From the NCBI RefSeq assembly GCF_001598455.1, contig NZ_BCYZ01000017.1, forward strand, positions 1 through 64,000: 64,000 bases of DNA, written 5' to 3'. Below, one piece after another: positions 19,541 to 62,161 of this stretch. How positions within the stretch are numbered: the first letter of the stretch is position 1; each line of letters opens with the position of its first letter. Source of the DNA: Sphingomonas pruni NBRC 15498 (GTDB lineage: Bacteria; Pseudomonadota; Alphaproteobacteria; Sphingomonadales; Sphingomonadaceae). The notes beneath the pieces are model-generated. The model worked only from the letters and a program-made list of their open reading frames with translations, was not told the origin of the DNA and made no database searches. The position numbers and the translations under genes are program-made.

Positions 19541-19680
19541 CCCTCTCCCGCCTGCGGGAGAGGGAGGGCCCCGGCGCGAAGCGGCGGGAGGGTGAGGGTC
19601 TTCTTTCTTCTTCTCTCGGTACACGCTTAGAAGAAGAAAGAAGACCCTCACCCAACCCTCTCCCGCAAGCGGGAGAGGGC
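19541..19680. repeat. REP-like palindrome pair around a 25-bp perfect inverted repeat
   Basis: Two near-identical short palindromes, each with CCCTCTCCCGC / GCGGGAGAGGG arms, lie at 19541-19564 and 19656-19679. Between them a perfect 25-bp inverted repeat (19590-19614 against 19629-19653, loop 14 nt) could form one long hairpin. Degenerate relatives of the short palindrome occur at 25595-25618 and 46189-46212. The block lies between the convergent lipoprotein and secA genes. A REPIN-like non-autonomous element is the best label; a role in 3'-end protection is possible. Confidence 0.8.
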
Positions 19681-29489: not shown

Positions 29490-32445
29490 ACCATTCGTGG
29501 CGGCGCATCAATTGGTCGTAATCGCCAAACGGCGCATATTCAGGCTTCAGCTTAGCGGTGAACGGCGCCCCGCCGGTCAACCACACGTCCGCCGCCTCGG
29601 TGAAATTGCGCCGCGCCTCGGCAACGAATTCGTCGGCCGGGATCGGGTCCTTCTTCTTCGGGTCGCAGGGTGAATCGACATAACCGAAACCGCCGGCGCG
29701 ATTGCGCGCAAGCGACCAATATTCGAAGCCCTCGGCCTTGCCCGCGACGCCGGCGAACTTGCCCGCCTCGGCGATCATGCCGAGCAAGCCGAGTTGCAGG
29801 CTGAAGCCCGCGCGCACCGCCGCAGTCGAGGGCGGCTGTCCGGTCTTGTAGTCGACCACCACCAGCCCGCCATCGTTGAGCCGGTCGATCCGGTCGAACC
29901 GACCCGACAGTTCGACTCCGGCCAACTGCAAAATGCCCTTGCCCTCGACCGCAAGAATGCTCCGTTCGCCGGCGCGATCGGACACTTCGCGCGCGATCCA
30001 GTCGACCGCTTCGATCAGGCGCGGCCCCCATAATGCCCGGATCATCGGATGCGTGCGCACATCGCCCAGCAAGGCCTCTGCTCGTGGGCGCAAGGTTTCG
30101 GGATTGGCGCCATCCTCGCGGAACCAGCTTTCCAGGATCGCGTGAACCTGATTGCCGCGCCAGGCAGGGCTTGGTTCGGCGTCGACCGGATCGATCGCCC
30201 CCAGCCGCAGCATCCGCCGTGCGTAAAAGGCATAGGGGTCGGCCTTGAGCCGATCGACCTCGGTCACCGAGATCTGGCGCGGCCGATCCTCGACCGCGGG
30301 TGACGGCTCGGGCCGCGACGCCGGCTCGTGCATGCCCGGATTGTCGATCGTCGCTGCCCATGAAGCGAGATCGGGATCGCGAACGAAGCGATCCCCCGCC
30401 AGCGCTTCGAGCCGCAGCCAGAAGCGCGACGCCAGGGTTGGTGATCGCCCGTCGCGGCGCGCGCGTGTGATCAGCACTTCGGGCGCGCCCAGGGCATTGG
30501 CGAAATCATGCGCCGCGACGCCGATGCCGCGATCGAGCCCCGGCAACCCCAGTTCGGTGCGGATGCGCGGCGCCAGCCAAGGATCGGGGGCGGCGATCGC
30601 CGGCCAGGTACCCTCGTTCAAACTGCCGAGGATCGTCAGGTCGGCGGTCTGAAGGCGCGCCTCGATCAGGCCATAGATCGCCAGCCGCGGATGCCCGCCC
30701 TGCGGAGGACGAATCGCGACTTCCTCCATCAAGGTGCCCAGCAGCGGCGCGACGCTGGCCGGATCGACCAGGGGCGGCCCATCCGCTGCGCGCAGTTCGA
30801 GATCGGCGAGCAATTCGGCCGCGGCGCGCCCCGCCGGCCCCGCCCAGACCGCGAAACCGCAAAGGGCCTCCGCGGTCTCTAGCAGCGTAGCGATCATTGC
30901 AGCCAGCGGTTGCGCGCCATTGCCGAAGGAGCGCGCCAGGGGTTCGAGTAAGCCGCGCATTTCCGGCCAGACCTGCCGCGCCGCCGCGCGAATCGGCGCC
31001 TCGCGCTCGTCACCGTCGAGCAGATGCGCGTCGATGCCGGCCAGCCCGGGTGCCGGGCGCGGCCCACGCAGGGCGCGGTCGAGCGCGCGCACGCCATCGA
31101 GCCACAAGGTCCGCGGTTCCCCGCTCTGGACGAGCGGGTGCTTGAGCAGCGCCAGCAGCGCCAGCGGCGCAAAGTCCTGCGCCGCCGCCTCCGCCATCAT
31201 CGTCAACAACGTGCCGGGCGCACGCGTCGCGAGCGGGCGGCCGGCGGTATCGTCGACATCGATCCCCCAGCGCGCACAATGCGCCGCGACGCGCTCCGCC
31301 AACGCGCGGTCGGGCGTGACCAGGGCAGCGGTACGCCCCTCGACTTCCAACGCGCCGCGCAATGCCAGCGCGATCGCCTGTGCTTCGTCGGCGGGGGTCG
31401 CCAGTTCGACCGCACGAATCCCGGTCAATCGCCGGTCGGGCGCCTCCAGATCGGTCCACTTGCCGGTGAATTCGGCGGGAGCAAAAGCATTGGCGATCGC
31501 CTTGCCACGCGCGACGGATGCGTCGTGATCGCTGCCCTCGCGCCAGGTCCGCACTTCACCGCGCCCTGCGCTCATCCGTTCGAGCAGCAGCTTCAACTGG
31601 AATTGCGGATGGGTTTCGATCGATCGCGCCTTGAACCCGCTGGCATCCGGCTCGTGCGGCCCAAGCGCGTCCCATTCCTCGGCCGGCATCGCGATGGCGA
31701 GATCCTGGAAGACGACCAATCCCTGGTCGAGCTCGGCGACACGCCGCAACAAGGCGGCCACTGCCGGCGCCGGGTCGGTGATTCCCGCCGCGCAGACGAA
31801 ACCCGCCGGCGGCGTCTCCTTCCAGCGCACCGCCAACCGGCGCAGCATGATCGCACGCCGCGCCGCCGCGTCCATCGCCTCCATCCGAGCCAATTCCGCC
31901 GGCCAGCGGTCGATGACGATGCGGAACAGGTCGAGTGCGCGCTCCCAATGGCTGGTCAATTCGCGCCCGACGTCGAGCTCGGCAAGTTTCGCCGCCGCGA
32001 CTTCCTCGACCAGCAATTGGTCGAGCGTTCGTGCCAGAGCGCCGGCCAGACGCACCGCTTCGTCGGCGGCAACCGGCTCACCCTGTCGCGCGCGCTCCTC
32101 GCTGACCAATCTGGCCAGGACCATCCGCCGCGCCAGCGGATCGACCGGTGGCGGTAACAGCTCGAGATCGTCAGCCGGATCAAGCATCGCCCCGGCCGCC
32201 TCGTCGAGCGCGGGGTCGCCGATCGTCACCAGCCGTGGCAGCAACAGGCCGCCGCCGCTAGCGCGGACGAATGCGTCCTGTACGGCACGCCGCCCGCGAT
32301 TGTTCGGCAGCAACACGACTCCGCGCGCGAGCCGCATCGGATCGTCGCCGAACCGCTTCATCAGCCCGGCAACTAGCGCATCGGCAAAAGCACGCTGCGC
32401 TGGAATCGTATAAAGCGCGAGGCCGCGCTGTGGGGCCAAACTCAT
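29470..32445 (-). CDS. addB: Double-strand break repair protein AddB
   Basis: Partner of AddA: an inactivated helicase-like N-terminal region that in related complexes recognises Chi, plus a C-terminal RecB-family nuclease domain (GLVVVDYKTGQPPSTAAVRA; Asp and Lys of the D..K motif). About 991 residues. Characteristic stretches are VVLLPNNRGRRAVQDAF near residue 45 and SLNEGTWPAIAAPDPWLAPR in the middle. I choose ATG 32445; a TTG at 32454 is in frame. The start codon lies inside the left arm of a large palindrome (32432-32700), so the leader RNA of addB may be strongly folded. Confidence 0.94.
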   Translation of the reverse strand: MSLAPQRGLALYTIPAQRAFADALVAGLMKRFGDDPMRLARGVVLLPNNRGRRAVQDAFVRASGGGLLLPRLVTIGDPALDEAAGAMLDPADDLELLPPPVDPLARRMVLARLVSEERARQGEPVAADEAVRLAGALARTLDQLLVEEVAAAKLAELDVGRELTSHWERALDLFRIVIDRWPAELARMEAMDAAARRAIMLRRLAVRWKETPPAGFVCAAGITDPAPAVAALLRRVAELDQGLVVFQDLAIAMPAEEWDALGPHEPDASGFKARSIETHPQFQLKLLLERMSAGRGEVRTWREGSDHDASVARGKAIANAFAPAEFTGKWTDLEAPDRRLTGIRAVELATPADEAQAIALALRGALEVEGRTAALVTPDRALAERVAAHCARWGIDVDDTAGRPLATRAPGTLLTMMAEAAAQDFAPLALLALLKHPLVQSGEPRTLWLDGVRALDRALRGPRPAPGLAGIDAHLLDGDEREAPIRAAARQVWPEMRGLLEPLARSFGNGAQPLAAMIATLLETAEALCGFAVWAGPAGRAAAELLADLELRAADGPPLVDPASVAPLLGTLMEEVAIRPPQGGHPRLAIYGLIEARLQTADLTILGSLNEGTWPAIAAPDPWLAPRIRTELGLPGLDRGIGVAAHDFANALGAPEVLITRARRDGRSPTLASRFWLRLEALAGDRFVRDPDLASWAATIDNPGMHEPASRPEPSPAVEDRPRQISVTEVDRLKADPYAFYARRMLRLGAIDPVDAEPSPAWRGNQVHAILESWFREDGANPETLRPRAEALLGDVRTHPMIRALWGPRLIEAVDWIAREVSDRAGERSILAVEGKGILQLAGVELSGRFDRIDRLNDGGLVVVDYKTGQPPSTAAVRAGFSLQLGLLGMIAEAGKFAGVAGKAEGFEYWSLARNRAGGFGYVDSPCDPKKKDPIPADEFVAEARRNFTEAADVWLTGGAPFTAKLKPEYAPFGDYDQLMRRHEWYGREQR

Positions 32446-32700
32446 GGCCGCCAAGGGCCGTGACGGAGCGAAATCCGCTGCAGAGCTAGAAGCGAGGAAG
32501 GAGCGATGCCGAAGCGCATCGTGACCGACGAGCGACGACGCGCTGCAGCGGATTTCGCCCGCCCCACAGGGGTCGGGCGCAGCTTTTCGCTGGACGGCGT
32601 CGCTTGCTTGCGTGGGCCAGCTGGCCCGCGCTGCGCCGCGCTCCTAGCCAGCAAAAAGCTGCGCCCGATCACGGCCTTTGGCGGCCATGAGTTTGGCCCC
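32432..32700. repeat. 269-bp three-armed (cloverleaf-like) palindromic element
   Basis: Outer arms 32432-32463 and 32669-32700 are inverted copies, identical at 31 of 32 positions. Inside are two further hairpins. Arm B has CGAAATCCGCTGCAG at 32469-32483 pairing perfectly with 32543-32557. Arm C has 32571-32593 pairing with 32648-32670 at 21 of 23 positions, around a central GGGCCAGCTGGCCC palindrome. Together they form a three-way junction. The left outer arm contains the addB start codon and first codons; the right arm ends at the murU stop. No supported protein is encoded inside. Origin unknown; a mobile palindromic repeat is one option. Confidence 0.85.
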
Positions 32701-33473
32701 TAAGCATCGATCAGGAGCGCTTCCGTCTTGGCAATCGCCGGCGGCGTGCCGACGTCGAACCACAACCCCTGGTGGACGAAACCATAAGCGCGGCCCGCTT
32801 CGATCGCGCGGTTCCAGAATATATTGGTTGAGAAGGGCCCTTCCGGCCAATCGTGGATCACCCTCGGCGACAGGATCTGGACGCCGGTATAAACGAACGG
32901 CGCCACCCTGCCTGGCTTGCGGCGCCCCGTGATGCGGCCATTGGCGTCGAGGTGGAAGTCGCCGAGTCCGCCATGATTGTGCGCGCGCGCCAGCGGAACC
33001 ACCAGCAACAGCGCGTCCATCGCATCGTCATCCCAGCGCGACGCAAGCAGCTTAATCGTATCGGCCGGTCCATCGACCCACAGATTGTCGGCATTGGCGA
33101 CAACGAACGGCTTGTCGCCGATCAACTCGCGCGCCTTCACGATCCCGCCGCCGGTTTCCATCAACTGATCGCGCTCGTCGGAAATGACGACGTCGATACC
33201 CTTCACACGATTCTTGAGATGCGCTTCGAGCGCGTCGGCGAGATAATGGACGTTGACCACCGCGCGCTTGATCCCCGCCGCACGCAGGCGGTCGAATACG
33301 TGATCGAGCAAGGGCTGTCCCGCGACCTGAATCAACGGCTTGGGCCGCGTCGCGGTCAGCGGCCGCATGCGCTTGCCGATACCCGCAGCCATAACCATTG
33401 CGGTCTCGGGAACCGTCCCGCCCGGGTCCGGTCGCAGCGACAGCGTACGGTTCGGGGTGCGTTTCGCGGTCAT
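32700..33473 (-). CDS. murU: N-acetylmuramate-1-phosphate uridylyltransferase (MurU-like)
   Basis: Nucleotidyltransferase-fold enzyme of about 257 residues. Next to an AmgK kinase it most likely makes UDP-MurNAc in peptidoglycan recycling. Motifs are MVMAAGIGKRMRPLTATRPK (the GxGxRxxPLT...PK nucleotide-binding signature), VVNVHYLADALEAHL, SDERDQLMETGGGIVKA and VVANADNLWVDG, where Asp binds metal. ATG 33473 overlaps the amgK stop (ATGA). Without the neighbour, mannose-1-phosphate guanylyltransferase would be an alternative label. Confidence 0.88.
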   Translation of the reverse strand: MTAKRTPNRTLSLRPDPGGTVPETAMVMAAGIGKRMRPLTATRPKPLIQVAGQPLLDHVFDRLRAAGIKRAVVNVHYLADALEAHLKNRVKGIDVVISDERDQLMETGGGIVKARELIGDKPFVVANADNLWVDGPADTIKLLASRWDDDAMDALLLVVPLARAHNHGGLGDFHLDANGRITGRRKPGRVAPFVYTGVQILSPRVIHDWPEGPFSTNIFWNRAIEAGRAYGFVHQGLWFDVGTPPAIAKTEALLIDA

Positions 33474-48519: not shown

Positions 48520-49014
48520 TCATTTGGCCGACGCGCAGAGCATCCTACCTCTGCCGTCACGCAACGCGCTCGCCTCCGACGGCGAATCGCTCATCCGTTC
48601 CGCGCTGAGCCCGGCTAGCGAACCACGCGAGGAACAGGCTTTCTGGCAGGCGTCGGGCAAACGGCCGGGGAAAACGATCCGGTCGCCCTCGAACCTCGCG
48701 TCGAAATTGCAGCCTGGGGTGTCGGTGAGCTCGACATGCAGATCCTCGCCGGCGCGGGTCGCCTCGCCTTGCGCGCTGCAATGATAGGTGTCGCCATAAT
48801 CTACAGAGATGCCGATCCGAAACGCGGTCGCGCTCGGCACCACGCAGATGCGGTCGCGGTCGCGTGTATAGAGGCCGGTCGGGTCGGTATTGGCGGGATC
48901 GGAGATCACACCGGCTTCGATCGCTGCGGCTTCGAGGCTGGTCGGAGTTGAGGTCGCTTGCGGGGCGGGCTGGCCGCCATGGCAGCCGGCCAAGTTCGAC
49001 AACACTGTCAACAT
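48520..49014 (-). CDS. Small lipoprotein, unknown function
   Basis: A 164-residue frame whose product begins MLTVLSNLAGCHGGQPAPQA; LAGC is a lipobox with Cys11, making the signal segment unusually short. The body contains FRIGISVDYGDTYHCSAQGE and LTDTPGCNFDARFEGDRIVF and four further Cys residues in a secreted-type pattern (VSIVFPG region and DACQKACSSRG). The frame remains open upstream to 49191, but that stretch is the REPIN-like repeat at 49039-49139, so those residues are probably not translated. I recognise no family. Confidence 0.65.
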   Translation of the reverse strand: MLTVLSNLAGCHGGQPAPQATSTPTSLEAAAIEAGVISDPANTDPTGLYTRDRDRICVVPSATAFRIGISVDYGDTYHCSAQGEATRAGEDLHVELTDTPGCNFDARFEGDRIVFPGRLPDACQKACSSRGSLAGLSAERMSDSPSEASALRDGRGRMLCASAK

Positions 49015-49038
49015 CCCAACCCGGGCCCATAATATGCT

Positions 49039-49140
49039 TCCCCGGCAAAGGCCGGGGCCCAGCATCGGCCCACTAAGTTGGGAAGGACAACTCGCAGGCT
49101 CAGACGCCACGAAACTGGGCCCCGGCCTTCGCCGGGGGAG
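49039..49140. repeat. REPIN-like inverted repeat pair
   Basis: A left palindrome at 49039-49062 and a right one at 49115-49140 are inverted copies (one base inserted, one changed) around about 52 nt of unique sequence. Each contains the CCCCGGC / GCCGGGG hairpin core, shared with the repeats at 51881 and 52245. Two REP palindromes in opposite orientation on a short spacer is the arrangement called a REPIN. It lies between hisI and the upstream end of the small lipoprotein gene. Confidence 0.8.
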
Positions 49141-49183
49141 CGTGAAGAACGATAAGACGGACTTCCACACCACCCAGACCATC

Positions 49184-49546
49184 TCACCCAATTCGAGCCA
49201 GTCCGTTCTTCATCACTCGCCGATAGAAGCACGACCGCTCACCGGTATGGCACGCCGGGCCCGCAGGATCGACGATCAGCCACACCGCATCCTGATCGCA
49301 ATCGATCCTGATGTCGCGCACGCGCATGACATTCCCCGACGTCGCGCCCTTACGCCACAATTCCGCGCGGCTGCGCGACCAGAACACCGCGTCTCCGCTT
49401 TCGACCGTTGCCGCCAGCGCTTCCGCGTTCATGTGCGCGAGCATCAGCACTTCACCCGAATCGCCGTCTGTGACCACTGCCGTGATCAGCCCGTCGGCAC
49501 CCCATTTCGGATCGAGCGTCAGCCCGGTTTCACGCGAGTCGGTCAT
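49184..49546 (-). CDS. hisI: Phosphoribosyl-AMP cyclohydrolase
   Basis: Third step of histidine biosynthesis, opening the adenine ring of PR-AMP. 120 residues, monofunctional (no HisE domain). Motifs: [40 protein letters not shown], and the zinc/magnesium sites [20 protein letters not shown] and [13 protein letters not shown]. It stands apart from other his genes and is convergent with nothing; the stop is 44 nt from the REPIN-like repeat. Confidence 0.96.
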
Positions 49547-49688
49547 GCCCCTCCCCTAGCGCGGCACCGCGATCCGACAAAATCGGCACAAGGCGTATGA
49601 CAAATACGCGACAAACCCGGCAGGCGTCACTATATGGCCGAGCGCCACAGCAGCACGGATCGCAGGGTCCGCACTGAGTACGGACACC

Positions 49689-51146
49689 ATGCTGACCACG
49701 AATCCTTTTGACGACGACAAACTCCGCGAGGAGTGCGGCATTTTCGGTGTGTCCGGTGCGGACGGCGCCGCGGCGCTGGTGGCGCTGGGGCTGCACGCCC
49801 TCCAGCATCGCGGACAGGAAGCCGCCGGCATCACCAGTTGGGACGGCAAGCATTTCCACAGCCACCGCGCGATGGGCCATGTCGCCGGCAATTTCGACAA
49901 AGACGAGATCATGGGCGGGCTGCGCGGGCAGACCGCTTGCGGCCATGTCCGCTACTCGACCACCGGTGAGACCGCGCTCCGGAATGTCCAGCCGCTCTAT
50001 GCCGAACTTGCCACCGGCGGGTTCGCGGTCGCGCATAACGGCAATATCTCCAACGCTTTCCGTCTGCGCAACGATCTCGTCCAGCGCGGCGCGATCTTCC
50101 AGTCGACCAGCGATACCGAAGTCATCATCCATCTGGTCGCGACCAGCTCCTATCGCGATCCGCTCGACAAGTTCGTCGATGCGCTGCGCCGGGTGGAAGG
50201 CGCCTATTCGCTGATCGTGCTGACCCCGACCGGCATGATGGCGTGCCGCGATCCGCTCGGCATCCGGCCCCTGGTGATGGGCAAATTGGGCGACTCGGTC
50301 ATCTTCGCGTCAGAAACCGTCGCGCTCGACGTGGTCGGGGCAGAATTCGTCCGCTCGGTCGAGCCGGGCGAGCTGATCATCGTCGAGGACGGCAAGCTGC
50401 GCTCGCTGCGCCCGTTCGGCCAGACCGCGCCGCGACCGTGCATCTTCGAATGGGTCTATTTCTCGCGGCCCGATTCGATCGCCGGCGACCAGTCGGTCTA
50501 TTCGGTCCGAAAGGCGATCGGCGCGCAGCTCGCGATCGAATCGCCGGTCGAGGCCGATCTGGTCATTCCGGTGCCCGATTCGGGCGTGCCTGCCGCAATC
50601 GGCTATGCCCAGCAATCGGGTATCCCGTTCGAGCTGGGCATCATCCGCTCGCATTATGTCGGCCGCACCTTCATCCAGCCGGGCGCCGAGGTCCGTCGCC
50701 TGGGCGTGAAGCTCAAGCACAATGCCAATCGCGCGCTGATCAAGGACAAGTCGATCATCCTGGTCGACGATTCGATCGTCCGCGGCACGACCAGTCTCAA
50801 GATCGTCGAGATGATGCGCGAAGCTGGGGCGCGCGAAGTGCATATGCGCATCGCTTCCCCGCCGACCACGCATTCCTGCTTCTACGGCGTCGATACGCCC
50901 GAGCGCGAGAAGCTGCTCGCGTCGCGCTATTCGGTCCCGGGCATGACCGACTTCATCCATGCCGACAGCCTAGCGTTCGTGTCGATCGACGGCCTGTACA
51001 AGGCGCTGGGCGAAGCGGGGCGCAACGGGCCCGCCCCCAAATATTGTGACGCTTGCTTCACCGGCGATTATCCGACGGTGCTGACCGATTACAGCGACGC
51101 GCATATGGACGAGCAACTCGCCCTCCACCCCGAAGCCGCGGAATAA
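49689..51146 (+). CDS. purF: Amidophosphoribosyltransferase
   Basis: First committed enzyme of purine synthesis: makes phosphoribosylamine from PRPP and glutamine. 485 residues. The glutamine-amidotransferase nucleophile is Cys16 in DDKLREECGIFGVSG, so a 15-residue propeptide is expected. HRGQEAAGITSWDG and YSTTGETALRN are in the N-terminal domain; the PRPP loop is SIILVDDSIVRGTTSLKIVE. Cys ligands suited to an Fe-S cluster are present late in the chain (SPPTTHSCFYGVDTPER, PKYCDACFTGDYPT). An SDR gene follows after 1 nt. Confidence 0.97.
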   Translation: MLTTNPFDDDKLREECGIFGVSGADGAAALVALGLHALQHRGQEAAGITSWDGKHFHSHRAMGHVAGNFDKDEIMGGLRGQTACGHVRYSTTGETALRNVQPLYAELATGGFAVAHNGNISNAFRLRNDLVQRGAIFQSTSDTEVIIHLVATSSYRDPLDKFVDALRRVEGAYSLIVLTPTGMMACRDPLGIRPLVMGKLGDSVIFASETVALDVVGAEFVRSVEPGELIIVEDGKLRSLRPFGQTAPRPCIFEWVYFSRPDSIAGDQSVYSVRKAIGAQLAIESPVEADLVIPVPDSGVPAAIGYAQQSGIPFELGIIRSHYVGRTFIQPGAEVRRLGVKLKHNANRALIKDKSIILVDDSIVRGTTSLKIVEMMREAGAREVHMRIASPPTTHSCFYGVDTPEREKLLASRYSVPGMTDFIHADSLAFVSIDGLYKALGEAGRNGPAPKYCDACFTGDYPTVLTDYSDAHMDEQLALHPEAAE

Positions 51147-51147
51147 C

Positions 51148-51855
51148 ATGACGAAAAGATTTGAGGGCCAGCTTGCGCTGGTGACCGGCGCGAGCCGTGG
51201 GATCGGCGCCGCCACGGCAAAGGCGCTCGCGGCAGAAGGCGCGCATGTCATCCTGACCGCGCGCACCGCCGGCGCACTCGAGCAGGTCGAGGAAGCGATC
51301 CACGCCACGGGCGGCACCGCGACCATCGCGCCGCTCGATCTGATCGAAACCGACAGCATCGCGCGATTGGCCAGTGCGGTCGCGGAACGCTGGGGAACGC
51401 TCGACATTCTGGTGCTCAACGCGGCGACGCTCGGTTCGCTGTCCGCAGTACAGGCGATCGATCCCAAGGAATTCGCCAAGGTCATGACGCTCAACGTCAG
51501 CGCGCAACAAGCGCTGATCGCCGCGTTCGATTCGGCGTTACGCAAATCGGCGCGCGCGCGGGTAGTCGGTGTCACATCCAAGGTCGGTCGCCAGCCGCGT
51601 GCCTTCTGGGGCGCGTACGGCGCGTCAAAGGCAGCGTTCGAGACATTGATCCAGGCCTATGGCGAGGAAGTCGAGGGCATCAGCAACATCCGCGTCGCCC
51701 TGCTCGACCCCGGCGCCACGCGCACCGCGATGCGCGAGCGGGCATATCCGGGTGAAGATCCCGCCAGCGTCAAGCCGCCGGAACTAGTGGCGGACAAGAT
51801 CGTCGAGTTGGTCGCTAGCGATGTCGCGTCGGGGCATGTCGAGCGGATGGGCTGA
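51148..51855 (+). CDS. Short-chain dehydrogenase/reductase
   Basis: NAD(P)-dependent SDR, 235 residues. Cofactor motif ALVTGASRGIGAATAKALAA near residue 10, LVLNAATLGSL (NAG-like), active-site Ser and YxxxK in VTSKVGRQP with YGASKAAFETLI. One base separates it from purF, so they are co-transcribed. Its substrate is not evident; a YciK/DhaA-type oxidoreductase role is possible. It ends 25 nt before the left repeat of the GIY-YIG cassette. Confidence 0.9.
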   Translation: MTKRFEGQLALVTGASRGIGAATAKALAAEGAHVILTARTAGALEQVEEAIHATGGTATIAPLDLIETDSIARLASAVAERWGTLDILVLNAATLGSLSAVQAIDPKEFAKVMTLNVSAQQALIAAFDSALRKSARARVVGVTSKVGRQPRAFWGAYGASKAAFETLIQAYGEEVEGISNIRVALLDPGATRTAMRERAYPGEDPASVKPPELVADKIVELVASDVASGHVERMG

Positions 51856-51880
51856 GGCTCGAACCCTAGCCTCCCTACTC

Positions 51881-51918
51881 CGTCACTCCGGCCTTGTGCC
51901 GGGGTCTGCCGGGCGGCA
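51881..51918. repeat. Left 38-bp inverted repeat of the GIY-YIG cassette
   Basis: Matches the inverse of 52245-52282 at 36 of 38 positions. It contains the hairpin core CCGGCCTTGTGCCGG followed by a second small palindrome (TGCCGGGCGGCA). A shorter relative is at 62133-62161, and the core is shared with the REPIN-like repeat at 49039-49140. Confidence 0.9.
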
Positions 51919-51927
51919 GACTATGGC

Positions 51928-52242
51928 GTGGAGATCGAACGAACACCTTGCGTCTATCTTCTGGCCAAGGCGTATCACAGCACGCTCTTCACTGGGGTTA
52001 CGTCCAATCTAGTAGGTCGAATCATCCAGCACCGTGAGGGTACATTCGGCGGCTTTACCAAAAGGTACGGCGTCTATCGACTTGTCTGGTATATGACCGG
52101 AGATACGATGGAGGCCGTCATCACGCGCGAAAAGCAGATCAAACGCTGGCCTCGCGAATACAAATACAATCTAATTGAAGAGCTCAATCCGACTTGGAAT
52201 GACCTTGCGGTGGGTCTCGGCCTTCCGCCTCTGGCACCGTGA
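51928..52242 (+). CDS. GIY-YIG nuclease-domain protein inside a palindrome-flanked cassette
   Basis: A 104-residue single-domain GIY-YIG (URI) protein. The family elements are visible: TPCVYLLAKAYHSTLFTGVT holds the two strand motifs (VYLLA for GIY, LFTGV for YIG), VGRIIQHREG has the helix Arg, AVITREKQIKRWPREYK the catalytic Glu, and LIEELNPTWNDLA the C-terminal Asn. The start is GTG 51928. The gene fills the space between two 38-bp inverted repeats: 9 nt after the left repeat and 2 nt before the right one. Its codon context has more A/T than its neighbours. These proteins are often annotated as excinuclease-like; the arrangement instead suggests a nuclease that acts on the repeats. Confidence 0.88.
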   Translation: MEIERTPCVYLLAKAYHSTLFTGVTSNLVGRIIQHREGTFGGFTKRYGVYRLVWYMTGDTMEAVITREKQIKRWPREYKYNLIEELNPTWNDLAVGLGLPPLAP

Positions 52243-52244
52243 CG

Positions 52245-52282
52245 TGCTGCCCGGCAGACCCCGGCACAAGGCCGGGGTGACG
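52245..52282. repeat. Right 38-bp inverted repeat of the GIY-YIG cassette
   Basis: Inverse of the left repeat with 36 of 38 identities (differences at positions 7 and 35). It begins 2 nt after the nuclease stop codon and ends 26 nt before the convergent serine-hydrolase stop. The inner small palindrome is TGCTGCCCGGCA here, slightly different from the left side. Confidence 0.9.
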
Positions 52283-52308
52283 ATGTAGTCGTGCGGAGTT
52301 GACAGTCC

Positions 52309-53466
52309 CTATTCCGCCGCCGCCTCGATCTTCTTCCAGAATTCGGCTCGCTCCGCCGACAGCTTCTCGGCCGTCGCGGTCGGCCACGATCCCGACATGA
52401 CGACAACCAGCTTCTTCGCCGGATCGACCATGATGCTCTGGCCGAAAATACCGAGCGCGGCGAAGCGGCCGCCGGGCATCGTCCACCACTGATAGCCATA
52501 GCCGAAGCCGCCTTCGTCCTTGGGGATCGGCACCTGGTTGGTGGTCGCGCTGGCGAACCAGCCGTCGGGCACCACGCCCTTGCCACCCGACAGCGCGAAC
52601 ATCCCCATCCGGGCATAATCGCGCAAGCTCACCGACAGGCAGCATCCGCTGACCTCGCTTCCCGCCGGGTTGGTCATCCAGAACGCGTCGCGCTCCATTC
52701 CCCAGGGCTTCCACACCTTCTCGGTCAGATAGTCGGCCAGGCTCTTCTTGGTCGCGCGCTCGACCAGCACACCGATCAGGTTGGTCTCGCCGGTCTTGTA
52801 GACCCATTTCGTACCGGGCGTGCTCTCGCGGGGAAGCTTCTTCATGTACCAGACGGTCGGGTCCTGCCCCGCCGGTACTGGGTCGGAGAACATCCGGGCC
52901 ACGTCGGACTTGGGATCAGTATAATCCTCGTTCCACTTCACGCCCGACGTCATCGTCAGCAGCTGGCGCACCGTCACGCCGTCATACCCGCCGCCGGCGA
53001 GATCCGGGATGTATCGCGTCACCGGATCGTCGATCGACTTGATATACCCGTCACGGATCGCCGCGCCGACCAGGGTCGAGGTGAACGACTTGGCGACCGA
53101 GAAGCTGGTCCAGCGTCCATCAGCGCCGTAGCCGAGCCCATAGCGTTCGAGCCGGACCTTCCCATCCTGCACCACGATCAGCCCGGCGATGTTCAGGTCG
53201 GCCAGGCCCGCTTTGACGTCGGTCTCCGCTATCGGGAGCGGTTTGCCGTTGGGGAGCGGGCGGACCTTGGCCCCAGCCTTGACGACATGGCCAGGGAAGA
53301 TCTTTTCCATCTCGCGGAAATTCTGGTCGCGCTGCGGCTGGCTCCAGAACAACACCTCGGCGCCGACCTGGCGAAGCTTCGCGCTATTGTCGGGCGTGGC
53401 GATGACCGATTGCGCCGACGCCACCCCCGCCAGTGCGAATGCGGCAAGCAGACCAAAACCTTTCAT
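52309..53466 (-). CDS. Serine hydrolase, beta-lactamase/class C-PBP family
   Basis: A 385-residue exported hydrolase (signal peptide KGFGLLAAFALAGVASAQSV). The catalytic SxxK motif is FSVAKSFTSTLVGAAIRDGY near residue 120, and later GFGYGYQWWTMPGGRFAALG with LVVVMSGSWPT matches the usual C-terminal barrel. Beta-lactamase-like esterases and D-amino-acid peptidases share this fold, so the substrate is open. ATG 53466 overlaps the cfa stop (TGATG); the GTG one codon earlier is less likely. Confidence 0.87.
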   Translation of the reverse strand: MKGFGLLAAFALAGVASAQSVIATPDNSAKLRQVGAEVLFWSQPQRDQNFREMEKIFPGHVVKAGAKVRPLPNGKPLPIAETDVKAGLADLNIAGLIVVQDGKVRLERYGLGYGADGRWTSFSVAKSFTSTLVGAAIRDGYIKSIDDPVTRYIPDLAGGGYDGVTVRQLLTMTSGVKWNEDYTDPKSDVARMFSDPVPAGQDPTVWYMKKLPRESTPGTKWVYKTGETNLIGVLVERATKKSLADYLTEKVWKPWGMERDAFWMTNPAGSEVSGCCLSVSLRDYARMGMFALSGGKGVVPDGWFASATTNQVPIPKDEGGFGYGYQWWTMPGGRFAALGIFGQSIMVDPAKKLVVVMSGSWPTATAEKLSAERAEFWKKIEAAAE

Positions 53467-54692
53467 CACCCCTCCTTGATCAAGGTCACCTGCGCGACAT
53501 CGATCCCGCCGCCGCGGAATCCGCCCTCACAGTACATCAAATAAAAGCGCCACAAGCCGATGAAATGTTTATCGAACCTGTCCGGTAATTTGCCCGCTGC
53601 GACGACCGCATCGAACGCTTCGCGCCAGCGCTTAAGCGTCTCGGCATAGTCCAGCCGGAAAGCGTGCCGATCGCGCCACGCCAACCCGACTTTCTCCGCC
53701 AGCGCCTGGAAGCGGCTCTCCGACAGCAGCATGCCGCCTGGGAACACGTAGCGCTGGATGAAGTCCACGTTGCGCGCATAGCCCTCGAACATCGCGTCAT
53801 CGATCGCGATATACTGGATCGCGGCGCGCCCGCCGGCCTTGAGCACGCGGGCGATCGCGGCAAGATAATCCGGCCAGTATTCCTCGCCGACGGCCTCGAC
53901 CATCTCGATGCTGGCTACGCCATCGAACGTCCCGGTGACGTCACGATAATCGATCAGCTCGATCTCGACCCCGTCGAGCCCCTGCCGCGCCATTCGTGCC
54001 TCGGCATAGGCCTTCTGCTCGGTCGACAGCGTGATGCCATGGACGGCGATCCCCGCCTTCGCCGCGGTCTCCGCGAACGAGCCCCAGCCGCAGCCGATTT
54101 CGAGGATATGATCGCCGGGCTTGGTCGCAGTGCGATCGAGAATGGCCTTGAGCTTGACGTGTTGGGCGCCTTCCAGGCTTTGGCCCGGCACGTCGAACAT
54201 CGCGCTCGAATAGGTCATCGTCGGATCGAGCCACAATTCGTAGAATTCGTTGCCCAGATCATAATGGTCGTGGATGTTGCGCCGCGCACCGGCGCGATCG
54301 TTGCGGCGCGCCTTGTGCCACAAGCGGCGCAACAGCCGAGACACGCCCTGCGCTCGGCCCGTGCCTGCGAGACTGTGCCGGTTGAGCGAGAAGAGCTCGA
54401 ACAGCGCCACCGGATCCGGGCTTTCCCATTCGCCCGCCGCCCAAGCCTCGTACCAGCCAGCCGAGCCTGCGGTCGCCAGCCGCCACAAGGCCCGCCAGGT
54501 GTTGAGGATGACGATTGCCTCGGGCCCGGGCGCGCGGCCGCCAAGCCGCATCGGCGCGCCGCTCTCCGGTAACGAGACGGTAATTGCCCCCTGATCGAGG
54601 CACTTGTCGATGCGCGCCAACAGCCGTCGCCCGATCGGCGCGAACGGTCCTCCGCGGCTGCGCTGCCCCCTATCGCTCGTAGGCGCATCCAT
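53466..54692 (-). CDS. cfa: Cyclopropane-fatty-acyl-phospholipid synthase
   Basis: SAM-dependent enzyme that adds a methylene bridge to unsaturated acyl chains of membrane phospholipids. About 408 residues. SAM motif HILEIGCGWGSFAETAAKAG, HDHYDLGNEF-like segment IHDHYDLGNEFYELWLDPTM, TYSSAMFD, and the C-terminal YVFPGGMLLSESRFQALAEK and WRFYLMYCEGGFRGGGIDVA. ATG 54692 has GAGGAAAGG upstream; the open frame continues to 54995 but is not Cfa-like. It is followed by the overlapping serine-hydrolase gene and preceded by phr on the same strand. Confidence 0.95.
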   Translation of the reverse strand: MDAPTSDRGQRSRGGPFAPIGRRLLARIDKCLDQGAITVSLPESGAPMRLGGRAPGPEAIVILNTWRALWRLATAGSAGWYEAWAAGEWESPDPVALFELFSLNRHSLAGTGRAQGVSRLLRRLWHKARRNDRAGARRNIHDHYDLGNEFYELWLDPTMTYSSAMFDVPGQSLEGAQHVKLKAILDRTATKPGDHILEIGCGWGSFAETAAKAGIAVHGITLSTEQKAYAEARMARQGLDGVEIELIDYRDVTGTFDGVASIEMVEAVGEEYWPDYLAAIARVLKAGGRAAIQYIAIDDAMFEGYARNVDFIQRYVFPGGMLLSESRFQALAEKVGLAWRDRHAFRLDYAETLKRWREAFDAVVAAGKLPDRFDKHFIGLWRFYLMYCEGGFRGGGIDVAQVTLIKEG

Positions 54693-62132: not shown

Positions 62133-62161
62133 CGTAACCCCGGCATTGTGCCGCGGTTACG
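62133..62161. repeat. Single REP-like hairpin after rppH
   Basis: CGTAACCCCGGCA and TGCCGCGGTTACG pair at 12 of 13 positions around a TTG loop, 12 nt after the rppH stop. The sequence aligns with the first 25 nt of the GIY-YIG cassette repeats with about three changes, so it is a stand-alone relative. With no T-tract it is unlikely to be a standard terminator. Confidence 0.65.

Follow-up and report, generated by a model that had tools for sequence, protein, structure and literature searches.

The closest described systems are the REP/RAYT system, the CGTC-type REPs and the GIY-YIG nucleases. In the REP/RAYT system, the enzyme gene lies between two inverted REPs and is said always to be flanked by them, enzyme and REP co-vary, and the presence of the enzyme is linked to REP abundance (PMC2817692). 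A faster evolution than that of adjacent genes is a further criterion for its enzyme genes. The gene-less head-to-head dimers of this system are called REPINs, for which Bertels and Rainey mention, as unpublished, solo palindromes arising by deletion (PMC3116915). The CGTC REPs, one of two large REP superfamilies, have a CGTC or TGTC tag, a stem of 8-9 bp, a loop of 4-5 nt and mostly a CCA tail; they are predominantly head-to-head dimers and are found mostly in alphaproteobacteria and also in Neisseria, where these repeats are called dRS3 (PMC3733652). Di Nocera et al. (2013, PMC3733652) found no transposase associated with them, wrote that these REPs "apparently lack a dedicated transposase" and stated this as an open question; 'GIY' is absent from the main text of that paper. 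Among the GIY-YIG proteins, the prokaryotic Slx1-like group was predicted to consist of repair enzymes, and the selfish members were placed in the UvrC+ lineage (PMC1564403); REP bracketing of Slx1-like proteins does not appear in the parts of that paper examined. We found no literature linking GIY-YIG proteins to REPs, and no paper containing both 'GIY-YIG' and 'repetitive extragenic palindromic', in the open-access literature searched; this did not cover preprints or the majority of subscription journals, and many matches lay beyond those listed.

The window (the whole stretch of 64,000 nucleotides of Sphingomonas pruni NBRC 15498 DNA that was analysed) had been given a sequence-only reading, which pointed to a 104-codon nuclease gene within inverted 38-nt repeats. 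This arrangement was confirmed (Table 1): the repeats are identical at 36 of 38 positions, with gaps of 9 nt from the left repeat to the start of the ORF and 2 nt from its end to the right repeat, and their ungapped extension reaches 44 nt at 91% identity. In a seed-based scan of the window, they were the best 38-nt inverted pair at a spacing of 100-700 bp (runner-up, 34/38). The tag of the left REP is directed away from the gene. The cassette is also A/T-richer than its surroundings, as had been noted (the GC content is 53.0% in the gene and 57.7% in the whole cassette, compared with 64.9% across the window), the AT-richness of the gene being matched by 0.05% of 315-bp windows, and it does lie between convergent ORFs, at 51148-51855 (+) and 52309-53469 (-), which we named SDR and beta-lactamase-like by eye, without a search.

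Table 1. Features of the cassette and of related repeats in the window
Feature	Position	Strand	Description
Left CGTC-type REP	51881..51918	+	CGTC tag, 8-bp stem and 5-nt loop (CTTGT), then subterminal TCTGCCGGGCGGCA
GIY-YIG (Slx1/UPF0213-like) nuclease gene	51928..52242	+	GTG start, 104 aa
Right REP	52245..52282	-	Inverted copy of the left REP, 36/38
Gene-less head-to-head REP dimer (REPIN, ~106 bp)	49036..49141	.	Second REP class, the same as the L001 class
Solo palindrome	62133..62161	.	Outer sequence at both ends (CGTAACC...GGTTACG)

The hairpin of the cassette REPs, CGTC followed by ACTCCGGC/CTTGT/GCCGGGGT, satisfies the tag, stem and loop dimensions of the CGTC REPs; as to the CCA tail, the cassette arms read TCTGCC, and most left REPs of the dimers from the same genome read CCA. 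The repeats belong to the CGTC-REP superfamily. DNA folding gave -13.2 kcal/mol for the right arm (z -3.2) and -9.3 kcal/mol for the left 44-nt arm (z only -1.3). The hairpin core had five matches in the window at up to 3 mismatches, against 0.11 expected, two of them being the two strands of the right arm. The sequence-only reading had placed the same core at two other sites of the window. At 62133 the palindrome is present but an intact REP is not; we read this solo form, which is also found at sites where relatives hold a REPIN or a cassette, as what is left of a REPIN or cassette after its collapse. The assignment of the pair at 49036-49141 to the hairpin class of the cassette was incorrect, as this dimer belongs to a different class, the one bracketing another GIY-YIG gene of the same genome (L001), with 87 places at up to 1 mismatch in the genome. 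Two further structures were seen in the window. At 32427-32705 there is a structure of about 279 bp with 44-nt terminal inverted repeats (86%), MITE-like and unlike the REPs, with nested inner inverted repeats read by eye; at 19541-19679 there are REP-like nested inverted repeats (CCCTCTCCCGCCTGCGGGAGAGGG, 96%; a 25-nt pair, 100%).

The cassette protein of 104 aa matches PF01541 at 44.2 bits (cut-off 22.6) as its one Pfam domain, without an extra domain, and matches no NCBIfam model; in the records examined, the only database name is 'GIY-YIG nuclease family protein'. Its AlphaFold model has a pLDDT of 93.6, and the closest solved structure found by Foldseek is the UPF0213 protein 1zg2 (E 7e-4, the sole match under 0.001), followed by 1ywl (0.013) and then by Slx1 entries (E 0.06 and up), which are too weak alone. 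Slx1 is a nuclease of branched DNA. The Pfam match, the model and the Foldseek result together satisfy the criterion of a GIY-YIG fold in a minimal domain. The catalytic residues of SLX1, Y17, Y29, R39, H43 and E82 (PMC8287910), correspond by order and spacing to Y10, position 21, R31, H35 and E68 of the cassette protein, and their counterparts are invariant or nearly so in 39 homologues. The window copy keeps Y10, R31, H35 and E68, and has Phe at position 21, which is nearly always Tyr in the family and is Tyr in the relative from genome G385. Since F21 stands at a catalytic Tyr, the window copy may be impaired; the impairment may be recent, the REPs of this copy having been retained. The comparison of the window gene with this relative (dN 0.047, dS 1.02) showed purifying selection on the nuclease, for one gene pair only and without a comparison of neighbour genes.

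In the 4.48-Mb genome of S. pruni, the 25-nt core ACCCCGGCACAAGGCCGGGGTGACG was found at 57 places with up to 3 mismatches, 14 of them exact, and the reversed pattern at none. Many stem variants are compensatory around the ACAAG loop (GGC/GCC, GGA/TCC, GGG/CCC). Thirty of the 57 places were read: two are the cassette, three are at contig ends, and all 25 others have a second, inverted REP upstream. Eleven of these dimers are 107-108 bp long and most others 88-96 bp (the script measured 23 of 24; L014 and L027 are one site entered twice, and L030, at 123 bp, was mis-delimited by the script). Some dimers share the ends of the cassette beyond the hairpin (GCCGCCCGGCAGACCCCGG in L013 and GCTGCCCGGCAGACCCCGG in the cassette), and therefore the dimers without a gene appear to be non-autonomous versions of it. 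The dispersed gene-less copies that the sequence-only reading had likened to those of REP/RAYT are accordingly present in the genome. A PF01541 search of the genome found four genes. One lies in a UvrC-sized open frame of 642 aa; the other three are stand-alone genes, every one of which has inverted REPs on both sides (29-44 nt, 91-100%), with a different REP class at each gene. A RAYT as the mover of these REPs was rejected, since the RAYT/Y1 transposase profile PF01797 gave 0 matches in this genome, the one searched.

To what extent this arrangement recurs was surveyed with a profile (A4) made from 39 homologues, which matched in 83 of 289 evenly drawn alphaproteobacterial genomes at E<=1e-15. 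We fetched 140 of the listed matches, leaving out the seven weakest listed (1.4e-19 to 8e-16), and 138 remained after the removal of two without a flank. Local alignment of the 250 nt upstream with the reverse complement of the 250 nt downstream scored at least 14 for 88 of the 138 loci and at least 18 for 66. In the controls, these two thresholds were reached 2 and 0 times among 690 shuffled pairs, 15 and 10 times among 515 displaced windows, and 36 and 13 times among 681 cross-locus pairs. Homologues found mostly without repeats at their ends would have refuted the association, and in this evenly drawn, class-wide sample this was not the case. A hairpin is present in both arms at 78 of the 88 bracketed loci, and the downstream arm lies a median of 7 nt past the stop codon; the tag points away from the gene in 42 and towards it in 10 of 81 upstream arms, the rest not being called. 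A second test, for a tagged hairpin within 200 nt, was positive on both sides at 42/136 loci and on one side at 38/136 (displaced windows, 5/254 and 36/254). Fifty of the 138 homologues score under 14, and by the tagged-hairpin test 49 of these had a hairpin on both sides in 2 cases, on one side in 26 and on neither in 21. On the tree, bracketed and unbracketed loci show only weak clustering (34 changes, compared with a mean of 40.4 and a minimum of 34 in shuffles). In the flanks of L193, L121, L207, L117 and L099, three of which (L117, L099 and L193) score too low to count as bracketed, we observed sequences like TGTCATCCCGAGCG / CGTCATTGCGAG, which we take to be widespread repeats. A wider repeat family around these GIY-YIG genes is suggested.

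Bracketing is not confined to this sample. A score of 14 was reached by 22 of 31 loci from the same genus and order, by 23 of 36 loci from proteobacteria outside the class (the test covered 36 of the non-alphaproteobacterial matches listed) and by 46 of 77 named loci; the last set, 80 of 583 confirmed stretches, is biased because its query (A5) was built mostly from REP-bracketed genes. For the last two sets combined, 69/113 were bracketed, against 6/398 displaced windows. The bracketed named loci include Neisseria gonorrhoeae (L378) and Pseudoxanthomonas (L362), and metagenome-assembled genomes labelled in the records as Deltaproteobacteria (L395), Nitrospinae (L412), Chloroflexota (L400) and Rifleibacterium (L402). 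Among plasmid records, of which 13 of 33 were fetched, 11 of 13 score at least 14 in a slightly different test, two of them exactly 14. No homologue was found in viral_contigs and phages by single-protein searches, which reach close relatives only. In two loci of Neisseria gonorrhoeae (L066, L378), the GIY-YIG gene was seen between inverted CGTC-type repeats 76-112 nt away, with the tag towards the gene.

The enzymes and their REPs co-vary. For 65 bracketed cassettes, protein identity correlated with REP similarity (Mantel r 0.24; 0/2000 permutations), and the correlation remained among the 2026 cross-family pairs only (r 0.23; 0/2000 permutations). The 25 cross-family pairs with proteins at least 65% identical had a mean REP similarity of 0.60, against 0.28-0.30 for pairs under 55%, and the loop type, called by script for 49 cassettes, changed 11 times on the protein tree against 15.3 expected, which 1 of 300 shuffles reached. 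The effect is moderate, and the Mantel tests leave some effects of shared ancestry. Several divergent cassette copies per genome occur, mostly one per class, in agreement with the single-copy enzyme that the sequence-only reading had expected from its comparison with REP/RAYT. With a median identity of 54% between the cassette proteins of a genome, and 1 of 112 such pairs at least 90% identical, the gene itself seems rarely to multiply. RAYT genes likewise rarely multiply.

We also counted a generic CGTC pattern in the 289 genomes, the counts being copied by hand into the statistics. The gene is carried by 31 of the 36 genomes with at least 10 pattern hits and by 52 of the 253 others (Fisher p 1.7e-14, not a strict value because the genomes are related); at a threshold of at least 5 hits, the numbers were 39/54 and 44/235. 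Equal abundance of the repeats in genomes without the gene, the other outcome that would have spoken against the association, was thus not found. Co-occurrence only with the gene had also been suggested as a check; no cassette gene was found in five of the 36 REP-rich genomes, each with a single UvrC-sized PF01541 match. A hidden divergent GIY-YIG gene in gene-less genomes with at least 5 hits was considered and rejected, a recheck with one protein (L079) giving weak hits in 2 of 15; six of the 15, including the five with at least 10 hits, were searched with PF01541 and had one match each, in an open frame of 630-696 aa. Absence of the gene remains uncertain because at most 18 candidates per genome in the class survey, and 13 in the non-alphaproteobacterial one, were scored. 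In mixed families with a difference of at least 5, the side with the gene was REP-richer in 10 and poorer in 3 (f53, f58, f67; hand tally). Class B REPs numbered 103 (G009), 87 (G000) and 24 (G005) in genomes with the cognate gene clade, and 41 (G004), 34 (G003), 22 (G012), 14 (G007) and 8 (G001) where the clade was not seen, although not every cassette was typed in the last three. Class B REPs are thus also common in relatives where the clade was not seen, so that REPs can persist after the gene is lost or can be maintained by something else. In G009, the class B pairs with a longer spacing (L421-L424) were judged by eye to resemble tandem or longer REP dimers. In genome G296, 105 CGTC-REP hits and no GIY-YIG cassette were found; of the 13 hits listed for it, 4 are no more than 256 bases away from the start of a contig, and a cassette may therefore be hidden by assembly gaps.

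Orthologous sites, where empty sites had been suggested as a check, were informative as to the forms of the element. At the window locus, a solo palindrome replaces the cassette in the closest relative, G427 (SDR gene 90% identical), as read from the raw sequence since the alignment was poor; G323 has a dimer without a gene; and G335 has neither form in the stretch read, where the neighbour is also different. Hence one orthologous site holds a cassette, REPIN or solo form, depending on the species. A solo form is likewise present in one Sphingobium plasmid at fnrL, where seven other records hold the cassette and two further records have no REP. One dimer site has a dimer in the window genome, G335 and G385 and a solo form in G427, and the direction there is therefore likely from dimer to solo. 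All three solo cases fit a deletion between short direct repeats of the two hairpins. In Azospirillum lipoferum 4B, a cassette (L068) with a full REP dimer on each side splits the sufB-sufC gene pair; three relatives lack this cassette. A clean insertion junction or target duplication, the remaining part of that check, could not be read at any of the sites compared (G427, G385, G335, the Azospirillum sufB-sufC site and the Sphingobium fnrL plasmids), and no target duplication is claimed because divergence hid the exact ends. Searches of Shinella and Neisseria plasmids gave no empty site that was taken further.

We consider it probable that the REP-nuclease-REP cassette is the autonomous form of CGTC REPs and REPINs, and that the stand-alone GIY-YIG (Slx1-like) protein is their dedicated REP-associated nuclease. 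The association of the nuclease with REPs is firm, resting on the observed anatomy, recurrence, co-variation and link to REP abundance; its function in mobility is likely but unproven, and both the cleavage of the hairpin and the spread driven by that cleavage are inferred, without a cutting assay. In the mechanism that we propose, the REP pair would be extruded as hairpins, from single-stranded DNA at a fork or as a cruciform, and the nuclease, guided by stem, loop and tag, would recognise its cognate hairpin and nick it at the base or flank. From this nick the REP-REP unit would start to be copied or transferred to new places, mostly between genes. The small REPINs without a gene would spread most, with the gene cassette remaining single-copy per class, and deletion between short direct repeats that the two hairpins contain would reduce REP pairs to solo palindromes. 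Counting against this explanation are the REP-rich genomes without a detected gene (5/36), the homologues scoring under 14 (50/138), the three mixed families in which the gene side is REP-poorer, the class B REPs in relatives where the cognate clade was not seen, the lack of a clean junction and F21 in the window copy; in addition, slippage alone can account for the solo forms.

Chance flanking of a small gene by abundant REPs can hardly be upheld: REPs are indeed common in the S. pruni genome, but displaced windows were bracketed in 15/515 and 6/398 cases compared with 88/138 and 69/113 for the gene, which refutes coincidence. We regard a host function as unlikely. Here a structure-specific, Slx1-like repair nuclease would remove or restrain REP cruciforms, or be regulated by the flanking hairpins, and the REPs would be moved by something else. 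The predicted action of prokaryotic Slx1 homologues in DNA repair (PMC1564403), the purifying selection in one pair and the REP-rich genomes without a detected gene are in its favour, whereas such a function does not sit well with the patchy presence of the gene (83/289 genomes), with several divergent copies per genome, each in the S. pruni genome with its own REP class, with a downstream arm so close to the stop codon, or with the absence of a RAYT from the S. pruni genome. Homing-type drive, in which the nuclease would cut empty or allelic sites and repair by gene conversion would copy the cassette in, the REPs only marking or protecting the site and spreading by ectopic conversion, appears quite unlikely. 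It could account for the presence or absence of the cassette at one locus among relatives, and GIY-YIG nucleases do include homing endonucleases (PMC1564403). However, the 104-aa protein has one Pfam domain and no extra domain, no Rfam match such as an intron was obtained at E<=0.1 in 48800-53600, the only region searched, and homing predicts neither dozens of gene-less REPINs with the same ends nor the co-variation of enzyme and REP.

The reading as a dedicated REP-associated nuclease makes this protein a good candidate for the spreader of a hairpin-repeat family without a known enzyme. With a candidate enzyme inside the repeats, the question of the missing transposase becomes directly testable, and a common GIY-YIG protein family is linked to a likely substrate. 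The finding also suggests two separate origins of the REP/REPIN way of life, based on nucleases that are unrelated to each other. We lean, with only slight confidence, towards the wider proposal that the whole CGTC/TGTC REP superfamily, including the Neisseria dRS3-type repeats, has its dedicated mobility enzymes in the stand-alone Slx1-like GIY-YIG nucleases, the two forming a second, independently evolved REP/REPIN system with DNA-only mobility by a hairpin-acting GIY-YIG enzyme. If true, this would account for how REPs arose in Alphaproteobacteria and beyond.

Compared with the CGTC REPs, the repeats described here have the same tag, stem, loop and head-to-head dimers, and differ from those of PMC3733652 by the enzyme gene found inside them. 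The minimal GIY-YIG domain is shared with the prokaryotic Slx1-like and UPF0213 stand-alone proteins. The nuclease superfamily and the selfish-element context are shared with the GIY-YIG homing endonucleases, unlike which the cassette has REP brackets and gene-less relatives, and neither an extra domain nor, in 48800-53600, an intron that we could find. The resemblance to REP/RAYT covers the enzyme inside inverted REPs, the co-variation, the abundance link, the gene-less dimers and the solo palindromes, the abundance link being met with the generic CGTC pattern and only partly with the cognate class B. In contrast, bracketing was found at 88/138 loci here whereas RAYTs are said always to be flanked (PMC2817692); the enzyme is a GIY-YIG protein (PF01541) and not an IS200/IS605-like HUH/Y1 tyrosine transposase; and the tag is CGTC instead of GTAG. 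Since the enzyme and tag differ and the architecture, co-variation, abundance and dimers match, the system works like REP/RAYT but is not a member of it.
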